A DNA stretch of 61,735 nt, from positions 1-61,735 of the forward strand of contig QIAP01000063.1 of assembly GCA_003225075.1 (NCBI GenBank), given 5' to 3'. This DNA comes from Acidobacteriota bacterium (GTDB lineage: Bacteria > Acidobacteriota > Terriglobia > Terriglobales > Acidobacteriaceae). Positions 4,375-44,068 of the stretch are shown here, in pieces (the stretch's first letter is position 1; each line of letters opens with the position of its first letter). A program made the translations under genes and the position numbers. The notes beneath the pieces were generated by a model. The model was not told where the DNA came from, did not search any database, and was given only the letters and a program-made list of their open reading frames with translations.

Positions 4375-6291
4375 TCACAGAATCACCCGTTCGTCCCCGA
4401 CGCGCCGCGTCACCCGTTCGCGGTCCAAATACTCGAGCAGCGGAATTGCATACTTTCGGCTCACTCCAGTGAGCTCTTTGAATCGAGTAACATCAATCTT
4501 CGGCGACTTCATCTTGTATGACGCCATTTCCCGCCGCAACCTTTCCAACGCGCTGTGATGAAAGACCAGTTCCTCTGAAATCTTGATCAACAGCTTCTCA
4601 CGCAGCAGCAAGGTGACGATCTTTTGCGCGCGAGACTTATCCACTTTCAGTCCGGCGAGGACGTCCTTGATCGCCGGCACTTTGAGCCCGGCGGACGCAA
4701 ACGCTGTTTCGATGGTTTTCTTTGCCTCCGATTCTTCATCCTTCATCACCACGCCGCGGCCAGGAAGTCGCACGAGCTCGCCCGCGACCTCAATCTTCTT
4801 CTCATTTACCAGCGACTGCACTACCGCTGAAAATACCTCCGGCGATGCTTTCACCGCCTCGCGCAGCGCTTCCTTGCCGATTCCCGCTACCAGTGGATTT
4901 CGCTGGTGAAAATCCTCAACCGTGCTTGCGAGGAACAATTTCAGGCCTTCGATGGCAGGCGCGTCAGCCAGCAAATCTCCGATTCGCAGCACATGCCGCT
5001 GCCGTGCTGCCTCCGCAAGATGGTGTTCGAGCACTTGCCTGGTCCATCCAGTCTCGGCAACTAACCGGGAGAGGGGCAATCCATCATGGTGGCGCCGGGC
5101 TATGCGCGTCCTGAGAATCGACTGCGGATCGCCGTCATCCAGAGCTTTCAAAAAGGATTGGCGAATCTCTTTTTTCGTCCTCGGCAGCGGCATCGCATCC
5201 AGCACTACCCCGCCCCCAATCGTCGCCACCGGCGAAAATTGTCGCAGGATGAAACGATCTCCGGGCAGCAACAGCGCCGGCTCCGCCAACCGCAATTGCG
5301 CGTAGCCTGCCTCCCCAGCCCCCAGTTGCTTCTTCCCATACAGCAGAACGTCCGCAATCGTCTCCATGGTGTAGCAATGAAAGTGCAAGCGAGCCCGGTC
5401 TTTCAACGGCTTCGCGGAAGGCAATAAAGACAGCTTCACATCAAGCCTCGACGTCGATTGAAAGGTAGCAGTTGGCGCCAGCGTCATGCCGCGCGCAAGT
5501 TCTTCCGTGCTGACGCTCGCCAGGTTTAATGCTGTCCTTTGACCCGCGACGGCTTGCTCCGCCGCCTGCCCGTGGACTTGCAGGCCCCGCACCCGCACCA
5601 GTTTGCCACCAGGAAAAACTTCCAGCTCCTTGTCCTTGCGAATCGCCCCCGAGATCAGCGTACCTGTAACCACTGTGCCAAACCCTTTCATGGTGAATAC
5701 GCGATCGATCGGCAAACGTGCCAGCGCACTGGAGTCTTTCGCCGGCACTTCCGACGCAGCTTTCGCCAGCGCTCGCTTGAGCTCGTCGAGCCCCGCGGCA
5801 GTAAGCGAACTGACTGCCACTGTCGCAAAACTTGCGGAATCACGATTCCCAGAATCAAGAGACGAGCCCCGCAAGTAGTCTTCGACTTCGAGCCGCACCA
5901 CTTCCAGAGTGTCGCGATCGACAAGATCCGATTTTGTCAGCACCGCGATCCCTCGGCGCACCGACAGCATGCGGCAGATATCGAAGTGCTCGCGTGTCTG
6001 CGGCTTGATGCCCTCGTCCGCCGCGATCACCAGCAACACCAGGTCAATTCCGCCCACTCCCGCCAGCATGTTGCGCACAAACCGTTCGTGTCCCGGCACG
6101 TCCACGAATCCGAGCCGCAAGACATCTCCTCCCGGCGCCAGTAGCTCCAGATGCGCGAAGCCGATATCAATCGTGATGCCGCGCCGTTTTTCTTCTTCCA
6201 GGCGGTCAGCGTCAATCCCGGTGAGTGCTTTGACCAGCGCGGTCTTGCCATGATCGATGTGTCCCGCGGTGCCAACAATGACGGATTTCAT
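4375..6291 (-). CDS. selB: Selenocysteine-specific translation elongation factor SelB
   Basis: A GTPase that binds Sec-tRNA(Sec) and the SECIS hairpin and delivers selenocysteine at UGA. The 638-residue protein starts with the G1 motif [48 protein letters not shown] and the guanine-specificity motif LTKSDLVD follow. Elongation-factor beta-barrel domains come next ([14 protein letters not shown]). The C-terminal 250 residues form the SelB winged-helix repeats that contact SECIS RNA; the last reads [20 protein letters not shown], as in known SelB. Length is close to E. coli SelB (614). Its 3' end is 12 bp from the convergent AhpD-like selenoprotein gene. selA lies about 36 kb away at 42629. Confidence 0.96.
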
Positions 6292-24211: not shown

Positions 24212-25702
24212 CTACTGTCCCGGAGTTCCTTCGAACAGGGGCCATAGCTGATCGGCGGTGGCGCGGTAAATGACGAAGGCGCTGCCCGACTCGTAAGTCT
24301 TGCGGAAGAGCAGTTCGCCGCGACCGTCACCATCGGCGTCGACTGCGTCAATCAACTCCATGCGTGGAATGGCGTCCAGATGGCGAGTGTCAGTGACATT
24401 CGAAAACAGTTTGTGGAGTTCGCCGTTGATATCGTAGCGCCCCGCTAAGGTGACGAAGTACTGGAGGTCGGACGCAGTCGCCTCGATGGGATGCGGGGGG
24501 AGACGGGCGCCGGAAGGCGCTTTCGCGCTGGCCGCTTTTTCGATCACGGCTTTCGCGGTTAAAACCAGAATGGGCTCATTGCTATTGGCGAGGTCGAAAA
24601 CGCGGAACTGAATGTCGTCAAATTTAGGCTGTGCTTTTTGCGCAGTTCCGGATTTGCGTTGGGAAGCAGCAACGGACATCCCCGGTTCGCTGTTAATGAC
24701 GCCAAGTGCTGCGGCGCGATTACGGACTTCCACGGCAGCGACAGCCAGCATTCTCTTACGAAAATCCTGCTGCTGTTGTGGAGAGGCATCGTAGCTGTAG
24801 GGTCGCGGGTCAGGACCGTCGGCATCGGAAATGGCGGGCAGCCTTTGCACCGGCCCAGTCTGAGTTGAGTCTTTCGGTGAGGGGCGAGCGGCGGACGAAG
24901 CTTTGGAAGTGAGGGGAGGTTCCGGCACGGTCGACTGGGCGGTCTTACTCATGGCGGAGCCGCTCATGGTGGACCCGGGCGGAATGCCGCGTCTCAAGAC
25001 AGGATGGTCTTTATCATCCTGACCCGCCTTCTGGTCTTGGCCCTGGGCTTGGTCTTGAGCTAAATCTTTATTCGGCGCGGCGGATTTTTGTGGGGCGTTG
25101 CCGGCGGCGGGAGGTGGCGTGTTGGTTTTAGTGTCCGAGGCGGACGGAGTTGTAGGCGCTTGCGGGGAAGATTGCGATTGGGTACCGGAAGGTTTCGTTT
25201 CGGTGGAGTTACTGTCCGCTGGGGGCTTGGGCGGACTGGGATGCCGCAAGACTGGTGGACCCTCGTCCTTTTCCATCACCGGGGCGGATTCCGCCTGGTG
25301 CGCAGTTTTCGCCGGGGCCGTGCCGGCGGCTTGCCAGGTGCCCTCGGCAATCCATGAATTTTCTAACTGGCGTGCGCCTCCCGCGGTGAATAGCCCCTGA
25401 GAAACTCCTGTACGAAATGCCTCGTAGACGGTGCCGGAATAGAGCGCCATGGGCACGGGCGAAGCCTTGTAGGCCGCGGCGTCGTAGAACTTGCCATTGA
25501 TGATAATTGCAATTGGAATCAAATGAGCTTTGCCGTTTGCTGCCAGTTCCAGCAGGCCAGTCGCGCGCGGGCCTTTGCTGACTTGAGGTCGATGGCCGTA
25601 TTGGGCATGGACACTCGCCAGCCCAAGGAGCAGAACCGCCGTCCAGATGACGATTCGGCGGGAGGTGCGGTATAACGATGGGTGAGAGGCGAATATCCCC
25701 AT
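24212..25702 (-). CDS. Large secreted hypothetical protein with Pro/Ser-rich linker
   Basis: A 496-residue exported protein. ATG 25702 gives a signal peptide (IVIWTAVLLLGLASVHAQ) and is preferred over upstream starts, which would run antisense through the peroxiredoxin. The N-terminal domain contains IPIAIIINGKFYDAAAYKAS and ALYSGTVYEAFRTG. Residues about 150-290 are a Pro/Ser/Thr/Gln-rich linker including DLAQDQAQGQDQKAGQDDKD. The C-terminal domain has FRVFDLANSNEPILVLTAKA, LQYFVTLAGRYDINGELHKL and a Ca-binding-like DAVDADGDGRGELLF stretch. Function unknown. Its start codon overlaps that of the divergent selenoperoxiredoxin within a CATG. Confidence 0.65.
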   Translation of the reverse strand: MGIFASHPSLYRTSRRIVIWTAVLLLGLASVHAQYGHRPQVSKGPRATGLLELAANGKAHLIPIAIIINGKFYDAAAYKASPVPMALYSGTVYEAFRTGVSQGLFTAGGARQLENSWIAEGTWQAAGTAPAKTAHQAESAPVMEKDEGPPVLRHPSPPKPPADSNSTETKPSGTQSQSSPQAPTTPSASDTKTNTPPPAAGNAPQKSAAPNKDLAQDQAQGQDQKAGQDDKDHPVLRRGIPPGSTMSGSAMSKTAQSTVPEPPLTSKASSAARPSPKDSTQTGPVQRLPAISDADGPDPRPYSYDASPQQQQDFRKRMLAVAAVEVRNRAAALGVINSEPGMSVAASQRKSGTAQKAQPKFDDIQFRVFDLANSNEPILVLTAKAVIEKAASAKAPSGARLPPHPIEATASDLQYFVTLAGRYDINGELHKLFSNVTDTRHLDAIPRMELIDAVDADGDGRGELLFRKTYESGSAFVIYRATADQLWPLFEGTPGQ

Positions 25703-26162
25703 GGATACTAATGATAAAGCTCCTGAGTTCAGTTTGCCGGACGAGAACGGGAAAAACGTCGCGTTGAAGGACTTTCGCGGCAAGACGGTGGTGCTGTTCT
25801 TCTTTCCCAAAGCCGATACTCCCGGTTGAACCATTGAAGCGAGCGGGTTCCGCGACGCAAACAAGAAACTCCAAAGTGCCGGGGCAGTGATTCTGGGAAT
25901 TTCGGCAGACTCGCCGAAGACGCAGAAGAAATTTCAGGATAAGTATCAGCTGCCTTACACCTTACTGTCGGATGAAGACAAGAAGGTCTGCCAGGCCTTC
26001 GGTGTGATCAAAGACAAAAATATGTATGGCAAGATAGTGAAGGGGATCGCCCGCACGACGTTTGTGATTGGGCCGGAGGGAAAAATCGCGCACGTATTCC
26101 ACAACGTGAAAGCCGATGGTCATGCGGAGGAAGTGTTGGAATATTTGAAGGGCGCGGCTTGA
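25701..26162 (+). CDS. Selenocysteine-containing peroxiredoxin (BCP/PrxQ type), in-frame UGA
   Basis: A thioredoxin-fold peroxidase of 153 residues counting selenocysteine. From ATG 25701 (GAGAGG 11 nt upstream) it reads MDTNDKAPEFSLPDENGKNV, then LFFFPKADTPG. An in-frame TGA (25827-25829, codon 43) follows, then TIEASGFRDANKKL and ISADSPKTQKKFQDKYQLPY to the stop at 26162. The UGA is exactly at the peroxidatic Cys of the PxxxTPGCT motif, giving TPG-U-T. The usual second Cys five residues later is Ser (EASGF), so it is probably a 1-Sec enzyme; the only cysteine is in KKVCQAFGV. A SECIS-like hairpin follows the UGA, and selA and selB are in the same window. A conventional call would start only at GTG 25887 and lose the active site. 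Confidence 0.88.
25839..25858 (+). promoter_or_regulatory. Bacterial SECIS-like hairpin of the peroxiredoxin gene
   Basis: Upper stem GCGG/CCGC (25843-25846 with 25850-25853) closes the three-base loop GUU (25847-25849). Beyond a bulge (A versus GA) a lower stem GCG/CGC continues. The loop starts 18 nt after the UGA. The stem is shorter than in the AhpD-like gene but the G-U loop start and spacing are the same kind. Confidence 0.65.
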
Positions 26163-42628: not shown

Positions 42629-44068
42629 GTGAAGACCGCCGCGAAATCCGATCTATACCGCAAGCTGCCTTCGGTGGACGATTTGCTGCGTGAGACGGAA
42701 ATCGTGGCTCTCGCAGCGCACGAAGGCCACGCCGCTGTCGCCGACGCTGCCCGTGCCGTGCTTACCCGGCTGCGCACAGAAATCTCCGATGGGCATCTCG
42801 ACTCCGCAGCCGTCGATGTTGCCATCGCCGGACTGGCTGGCGCGGTCGAACACCAGCTCCGCAAGGCGCTTAGTTATTCATTGCGTTCTGTGATCAATGC
42901 TACGGGAGTGATTCTGCATACCAATCTTGGGCGTGCGCCTTTGCTTTCATCCGCCCTCGATCACATCCGAGATACTGCGAGCACCTACTCGAACCTCGAG
43001 TTCGAGGTCATTTCCGGAGAACGTGGCAAGCGCGACGTCCATGTGGAGCGGCTTTTCCAAAAGCTGCTGAACGACAGCTTCGCAGGCGAGGGCACTCGCG
43101 CTGCCCCGGCGGACGTCTCCACGATTGTGGTCAACAACAATGCCGCGGCCGTCCTGCTGGCGCTGAACACTCTGGCCGACGGGGAAGAAGTCATCGTCTC
43201 ACGCGGCGAACTGGTCGAAATTGGCGGATCTTTTCGCATTCCGGATGTGATCTCCAAGTCGGGAGCGGTGCTGCGGGAGGTGGGCACAACCAACCGGACG
43301 CGCATCGCCGACTACGAGAGCGCCATCAGTCAAAGCACCCGTTTGTTGTTGCGCGTACACCGTTCCAATTTCCAGATCAGCGGTTTTACGGAACGACCAT
43401 CGCTCCAGGAATTGGTAAGTTTGTCTCGCAAGCGGGGCATTCCAGTGGTCGAAGACCTGGGGAGCGGCGCGCTGTTCGATCTGAATTCTGTCGGCGTCAG
43501 CGGGGAACCGGGTGTTATTCATAGTCTCCGCGCCGGTATAGACGTAGTCACTTACAGCGGAGACAAGCTGCTGGGCGGCCCGCAAGCCGGTCTTCTCAGC
43601 GGACGTCGTGATCTGATTGCGCGCATGAGGTCGAACTCGTTGTTCCGCGCGCTTCGTGTTGACAAGCTTACTTACGCCGCACTCGAAGCTACTCTGCTGG
43701 CGTACATCAAACGTGATCACGAGGCGATTCCCGTTCTCCGTATGATGCGCGCCTCGAAAGACGAGATCGGCAAACGCGCCGAAATTGCTGCTCAAAAGCT
43801 TGCATCCGCAGCACTGAAGGTAAAGATTGCCGACGGAGAATCCGTAATCGGGGGTGGGGCTGCGCCGTCTGCGGTCTTGCCTACCCGCCTCCTGGCGGTA
43901 AGTTGCGATGATCTAAGCGCCGAAGAACTCGCCGAACGCTTGCGAGCTTCTGATCCGCCGGTGATTGCACGAGTTGAAGACGGGCGGGTGTTGCTGGATT
44001 TGCGAACCGTGTTTCCGGACCAGGACGATGTTGTCGTGAGCGCGCTGAATCGCGCGAGTCGCCGATAA
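42629..44068 (+). CDS. selA: L-seryl-tRNA(Sec) selenium transferase
   Basis: PLP enzyme that converts Ser-tRNA(Sec) to Sec-tRNA(Sec) using selenophosphate. The 479-residue length is close to E. coli SelA (463). RKLPSVDDLLRE at the N-terminus is the domain that reads tRNA(Sec). RSVINATGVILHTNLGRAPL, STIVVNNNAAAVLLALNTLA and VEIGGSFRIPDVISKSGAVL follow. The PLP lysine is K313 in VTYSGDKLLGGPQAGLLSGR. The start is GTG 42629. With selB at 4375 it shows that the organism can use UGA for selenocysteine. selD and the tRNA gene selC are not seen in the window. Confidence 0.96.
   Translation: MKTAAKSDLYRKLPSVDDLLRETEIVALAAHEGHAAVADAARAVLTRLRTEISDGHLDSAAVDVAIAGLAGAVEHQLRKALSYSLRSVINATGVILHTNLGRAPLLSSALDHIRDTASTYSNLEFEVISGERGKRDVHVERLFQKLLNDSFAGEGTRAAPADVSTIVVNNNAAAVLLALNTLADGEEVIVSRGELVEIGGSFRIPDVISKSGAVLREVGTTNRTRIADYESAISQSTRLLLRVHRSNFQISGFTERPSLQELVSLSRKRGIPVVEDLGSGALFDLNSVGVSGEPGVIHSLRAGIDVVTYSGDKLLGGPQAGLLSGRRDLIARMRSNSLFRALRVDKLTYAALEATLLAYIKRDHEAIPVLRMMRASKDEIGKRAEIAAQKLASAALKVKIADGESVIGGGAAPSAVLPTRLLAVSCDDLSAEELAERLRASDPPVIARVEDGRVLLDLRTVFPDQDDVVVSALNRASRR

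Follow-up and report, generated by a model that had tools for sequence, protein, structure and literature searches.

A BCP/PrxQ peroxiredoxin gene with a probable selenocysteine codon and without the usual resolving cysteine in an Acidobacteriota genome

Does an in-frame TGA at the active site of a bacterial peroxiredoxin gene mark a broken gene or a selenocysteine (Sec) codon and, if the latter, how would an enzyme that lacks the usual resolving cysteine complete its cycle? The question arises at a plus-strand frame (25701–26162) in the stretch of DNA analysed here, a contig of 61,735 nucleotides (the window). The frame runs from ATG 25701 to a terminal TGA at 26160–26162 and contains a single internal TGA, at codon 43 (25827–25829, plus strand), within PKADTPG-U-TIEAS, where U is the residue encoded by TGA. 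With UGA43 read as Sec, the product comprises 153 residues. Judging from the sequence, GAGAGG at 25684–25689 of the plus strand may serve as a ribosome-binding site 5′ of the ATG. A mechanical list of open reading frames of at least 90 amino acids holds this frame only as GTG 25887–26162, 91 amino acids located 3′ of the UGA, which is the fragment without an active site that the first-pass annotation had expected from automated calling. As the active site lies 5′ of the sole long listed frame, peroxiredoxin counts that take UGA as a stop miss the gene.

The same annotation had described 25701–26162 as a complete BCP/PrxQ-type frame except for the TGA, and the translation and family profiles bear this out. 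With Cys written for Sec, the product scored 172.6 bits against PRK09437 (thioredoxin-dependent thiol peroxidase; cut-off 140), and the AhpC-TSA profile gave 142.9 bits on the 153-residue product. Two NCBIfam models remained below their curated cut-offs, namely the PrxQ model NF053650 (164.4 bits, cut-off 260) and the PrxU model NF040737 (48.8 bits, cut-off 270), the latter of which we take, from its name, to represent the Eubacterium acidaminophilum protein. An AlphaFold model of the product, built with 34 relatives, reached a pLDDT of 94.7, and a Foldseek search with this model ranked BCP/PrxQ structures first. The segment PKADTPG-U matches the BCP/PrxQ active-site motif P(K/A/R)(D/A)xTxGC, as given in PMC5302317, with Sec in the place of Cys. 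In an alignment with PrxQ/BCP proteins (alignment A1), each of the 35 rows has either Cys or a TGA-encoded residue in this column, which assigns the TGA to the peroxidatic Cys of the TPGCT motif, as proposed at first pass; no aligned homologue spoke for another residue there.

We then compared codon 43 among relatives. The genome set comprised 61 genomes, the window's genome and 60 relatives, and a peroxiredoxin match at 1e-10 was found in 60 of them, G050 being the single genome with none at that threshold. The best match was examined in 50 of the genomes, that of the window included; the matches outside the 50 belonged to G001, G008, G016, G038, G041, G043, G045, G049, G054 and G059, and those of G054 (4.9e-40) and G008 (6.7e-38) scored level with the weakest of the 50. 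The same codon is TGA in 25 of the 50 and TGC or TGT in the other 25, and the 25 TGA forms span 23 genus codes. A wider set comprised 228 distinct loci after exclusion of three duplicates; 224 of these were tallied, window included, and four were missed by the search motif, which demanded Cys or a stop at codon 43. Codon 43 is a stop in 71 of the 224 sequences, in every case TGA and never TAA or TAG, and TGC or TGT in the other 153. Sampling of this set was uneven (TGA rows were fetched by preference and Cys rows in part, and two row pairs are identical in the tree described below), a bias that weighs more on the row totals of the two classes than on the fraction of each that lacks the Cys at position 48. 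A contig scan with two probes returned at least 80 loci and provided names and extra rows; it favours Cys forms because one of the two probes ends in Cys. Among the matches listed in that scan, the nearest named contigs were those of Acidobacteriaceae, Acidobacteria gp1 and Candidatus Sulfotelmatobacter. Two TGA forms that keep the resolving Cys, L111 and L142, have the TGA at the same PrxQ codon and lie on contigs titled Gemmatimonadetes and Candidatus Latescibacterota.

The nearest relative found, L171, is 84% identical and has both the same TGA and Ser48. Differences between the two genes fall on first, second and third codon positions in the proportion 2/2/13 before the UGA and 14/10/51 after it, a pattern that indicates translated sequence on both sides of the codon. 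This comparison supports the action of purifying selection on the sequence 3′ of UGA43.

A candidate local signal for Sec insertion is also apparent. A SECIS-like hairpin occupies 25839–25858 of the plus strand, and its stem, with the loop GUU at 25847–25849, is the minimum-free-energy fold. The first-pass annotation had correctly described the hairpin and its loop, but not the start 18 nt past the UGA: the stem begins after 9 intervening bases, and it is the loop G (25847) that is the 18th base. The suggested folding run recovered the hairpin as the minimum-energy structure, but its z score in isolation was −1.39, weak by itself, and 17 of 200 shuffles folded equally well or better; single-sequence folding is insufficient as proof of a SECIS element. 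A search of the whole window against Rfam at gathering scores gave no match. The support for the hairpin is comparative.

In the window's family, 14 Sec forms (the window gene among them) have a mean third-position entropy of 0.17 over codons 46–54, compared with 1.17 for the gene as a whole; no other segment of the gene is as conserved at third positions (rank 1 of 142). In 20 Cys forms of the same family the corresponding values are 0.99 and 1.31, lowest by only a little (rank 1 of 143), and in other families the segment ranks 5 of 139 in 11 Sec forms and 72 of 139 in 5 Cys forms. The expected conservation in relatives is, in other words, present in the Sec forms of the window's own family beyond the needs of the protein, and less pronounced in other families. 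The GUU loop occurs in 67 of the 71 Sec forms but in 46 of the 153 Cys forms, the three lowest stem pairs are formed in 92, 93 and 85% of Sec forms versus 48, 44 and 24% of Cys forms, and the mean hairpin energy is −9.1 kcal/mol for the Sec forms and −5.9 kcal/mol for the Cys forms. The upper pairs 17–27, 19–25 and 20–24 differ little (80, 75 and 68% versus 72, 80 and 66%), and pair 16–29 shows the reverse, being formed in 49% of Sec forms versus 94% of Cys forms; the window's own Ser codon disrupts this pair. Pair counts covered 22 Sec sequences chosen by hand: 84.7% of cells are paired, falling to 42–52% or less once the pairing is slid, and four of the eight pairs change on both sides. Five measures were compared with 500 shuffles: none of the shuffles reached the observed values for cells paired, cells changed on both sides or the covariation score, and the two weak measures, pairs changed on both sides and further pair types, were reached by 17 and 438 shuffles. 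Two Cys-type genes, L022 (in G028) and L068, retain a near-full hairpin block, GAAGCG...TTCCGCGAC, possibly the remnant of a recent switch from Sec to Cys.

The genome also encodes the apparatus for decoding UGA as Sec. As noted at first pass, the window itself carries selB, the selenocysteine-specific elongation factor gene (4375–6291, minus strand; TIGR00475 369.8 bits, cut-off 242.25), and selA, encoding L-seryl-tRNA(Sec) selenium transferase (42629–44068, plus strand; TIGR00474 545.6 bits, cut-off 267.9). The assembly consists of 259 contigs, and the remaining genes, whose absence would have spoken against the first-pass reading, are found on other contigs: a tRNA-Sec (selC; 70.2 bits, gathering score 47; ARAGORN tRNA-SeC, anticodon tca) and selD (349.9 bits, cut-off 125), completing the set selA, selB, selC and selD. 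The selD gene itself has one in-frame TGA near its start (locus L012, G000:C227, 2443–2445, minus strand), in KAAG-U-ASK, which makes SelD itself a likely selenoprotein. A second peroxiredoxin-like protein of the genome (L246, G000:C249:6800–7700, minus strand) has a TGA in FTGG-U-T and is also likely to be a Sec protein. In the window, selB, the peroxiredoxin gene and selA lie inside 40 kb (4375–44068), and on one contig of another genome (G004:C114) selB is about 16 kb from the peroxiredoxin gene; in other genomes they are on separate contigs or far apart. This proximity is perhaps a loose linkage, and chance is possible.

Across the compared genomes, the machinery more often accompanies the Sec form. 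At least one of selB and tRNA-Sec was detected in 24 of the 25 genomes with a Sec form and in 14 of the 25 with a Cys form (p 0.0019); the corresponding counts are 23 and 13 for selB alone (p 0.0036), 22 and 14 for tRNA-Sec alone (p 0.025), and 21 and 13 for both together (p 0.032). Among the 25 Sec-form genomes, no tRNA-Sec was detected in G002, G044 or G048 and no selB above the cut-off in G029 or G048; G048, the sole one with neither, is 73% complete.

Could the TGA nonetheless reflect a pseudogene or a sequencing error, that is, an ordinary PrxQ whose Cys codon was converted to a stop in the strain sequenced or in its assembly? TGC and TGT are each one base from TGA, and the assembly is fragmented. 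Against this, the TGA recurs across those 23 genus codes, all 71 stops of the wider set are TGA, substitutions 3′ of the UGA are of the coding type, and hairpin conservation goes with the TGA; we regard a pseudogene or error as very unlikely. A genome-wide reassignment of the stop, for example UGA read as Trp with no local Sec signal, could draw on the in-frame TGAs of selD and the second peroxiredoxin-like gene. However, the window gene and L171 both terminate with TGA at the same place, so wholesale reassignment is not the answer; moreover, TGA stands where Cys would be in the compared set and the genome has a complete Sec system, which together leave such recoding with hardly any likelihood. 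The sequence comparisons support the family assignment, the position of the UGA, the decoding genes, the conserved hairpin and purifying selection 3′ of the UGA, and we put the probability that UGA43 of this BCP/PrxQ peroxiredoxin gene is decoded as Sec at about 0.93.

If UGA43 encodes Sec, the next question is how the oxidized enzyme is resolved. Plant PrxQ has its two conserved Cys at residues 123 and 128 (PMC3095285), corresponding to the peroxidatic Cys (CP) and CP+5. At CP+5 the window protein has Ser48 (codon AGC, 25842–25844, plus strand, inside the hairpin), as read at first pass from the translation. Among the 224 tallied sequences, the CP+5 Cys is common but not universal (166 sequences). 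The window protein has no Cys at position 79, the alpha-3 site, either, and Cys97 (TGC, 25989–25991, plus strand) is the sole Cys that remains in the product.

Absence of the resolving Cys is far commoner among the Sec forms. It is missing from 50 of the 71 Sec forms versus 8 of the 153 Cys forms (Fisher p 1.3e-24, with kinship ignored), and so Ser48 is not a quirk of the window gene. The four rows missed by the search motif are all Cys forms, two with Cys48 (L103 and L121) and two with Ile (L130 and L164), which brings the latter count to 10 of 157. Of the 50 Sec forms lacking Cys48, moreover, 37 are devoid of Cys throughout reference columns 5–150. The eight Cys forms without the resolving Cys in the tree described below are L063, L064, L190, L223 and L225, which belong to the window's class and stand amid Sec forms that also lack it, and L108, L134 and L141, which come from other phyla according to their contig titles; L164, which is a Cys form from the same phylum as the window and has no Cys48, is outside the tree. 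L190, L223 and L225 are Cys-type PrxQ with no other Cys in columns 5–150, nested among like Sec forms, and are possibly 1-Cys enzymes that remained after Sec was given up.

Kinship was addressed on a tree built without the codon-43 and resolving-Cys columns. It requires a minimum of 16 Sec/Cys changes and 13 resolving-Cys changes. A model in which the rates of the two characters depend on each other outperformed independent rates (likelihood ratio 34.2, p about 7e-7), with a loss rate for the resolving Cys of 1.1 with Sec and 0.05 with Cys, but we grade this result as suggestive only because it comes from one quick tree in which 84 of 219 inner branches are open. A stricter independent-pairs test had five pairs on supported branches, too few for significance at any outcome. 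We lean towards the view that uptake of Sec at the peroxidatic site frees the resolving Cys in the PrxQ proteins of this class, that this Cys has repeatedly been lost (to Ser, Asn, Arg, His, Thr or Ile), that Sec-to-Cys returns stay without it, and that the Sec forms are true 1-Sec peroxidases.

A different cause for the same pattern would be that the hairpin prefers other codons at this site for pairing, the Cys being lost for that reason and not because Sec made it dispensable. Codon 48 does occupy stem positions 16–18. However, TGC is compatible with the full stem and is kept in 12 of the 14 Sec forms of the window's family, and RNA pairing offers no ready explanation for the loss since in 36 of the 50 cases the replacement codon disrupts pair 16–29; we consider this account improbable. 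It is also conceivable, although unlikely, that Sec is inserted but the enzyme does not work by a 1-Sec cycle, its resolving residue being instead Cys97, or a Cys supplied by a stably bound partner protein, through a selenenylsulfide. Cys97 is the only Cys remaining in both the window protein and L171, and Cys48 is retained in 21 of the 71 Sec forms. By contrast, most Sec forms that lack Cys48 are free of Cys in columns 5–150, and only 3 of the 50 (the window, L171 and L055) have Cys97, so this residue is not the general solution of the group; it also occurs in 46 of the 153 Cys forms although 145 of these keep Cys48. Cys97 could nevertheless take part in the turnover of the window protein itself.

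A 1-Sec cycle is probable for this enzyme, a reading strengthened by the 50 of 71 Sec forms without a resolving Cys. In this cycle, the SelA, SelB, tRNA-Sec and SelD of the cell would insert Sec at UGA43, directed by the hairpin at 25839–25858. The selenol of Sec43 would attack the peroxide and become a selenenic acid, which an external thiol, plausibly thioredoxin, glutaredoxin or a small thiol, would reduce. Such external recycling is most likely because the CP+5 resolving Cys is replaced by Ser48, and Cys97 would have no necessary role in it. We infer Sec insertion and peroxidase activity from the features above, the reductant being a matter of candidates.

In the compared relatives, the Sec forms mostly lack the partner Cys and the sulfur forms mostly keep it. 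Close relatives in this one family differ in having Sec or Cys at the peroxidatic site and in keeping or lacking the resolving Cys, and such forms make the long-discussed question of selenium's benefit to enzymes testable. The gain from selenium in this case is perhaps freedom from an internal resolving thiol. We did not find a link between Sec peroxiredoxins and loss of the resolving Cys in the literature searched, most subscription papers lying outside it, and it may have been published.

Sec peroxiredoxins of this type are an established group. In the reviews PMC9312934 and PMC1088965, Prx (COG1225, Bcp; TxxU) appears among the tabulated selenoprotein families, with reference to a 2001 publication on a Sec-containing peroxiredoxin from Eubacterium acidaminophilum; a 2006 survey (PMC1794560) counts 12 peroxiredoxins with Sec and, for Acidobacteria, 4 selenoproteins, and a 2026 review (PMC13188914) also includes the family. 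As COG1225 Sec peroxiredoxins are already known, the window gene is an added member and not a new family. It shares with them the Bcp type, the TxxU site (here TPGU) and the UGA-encoded peroxidatic residue; in the window protein the resolving position is Ser, a site on which the accessible sections of PMC9312934 and PMC1088965 are silent. Another Sec model, thiol peroxidase Prx-SUH (NF045827), gave a weak 34.8 bits, far below its cut-off of 298. The window protein resembles the Cys-type BCP/PrxQ enzymes (Escherichia coli Bcp, to which it is 49% identical, Xanthomonas campestris PrxQ 5iiz and Burkholderia ambifaria 5enu) in fold, motif and length, but differs from them in having Sec at the peroxidatic site and no CP+5 Cys, and in the alignment it has Gln where the Xanthomonas enzyme has its alpha-3 resolving position. 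Our literature searches on a parallel with glutathione peroxidases gave nothing. Selenium-type glutathione peroxidases, which are another family, have a peroxidatic Sec without a resolving Cys, and many Cys-type glutathione peroxidases keep one. If Sec does free the resolving Cys in PrxQ, the two families would present the same pattern.
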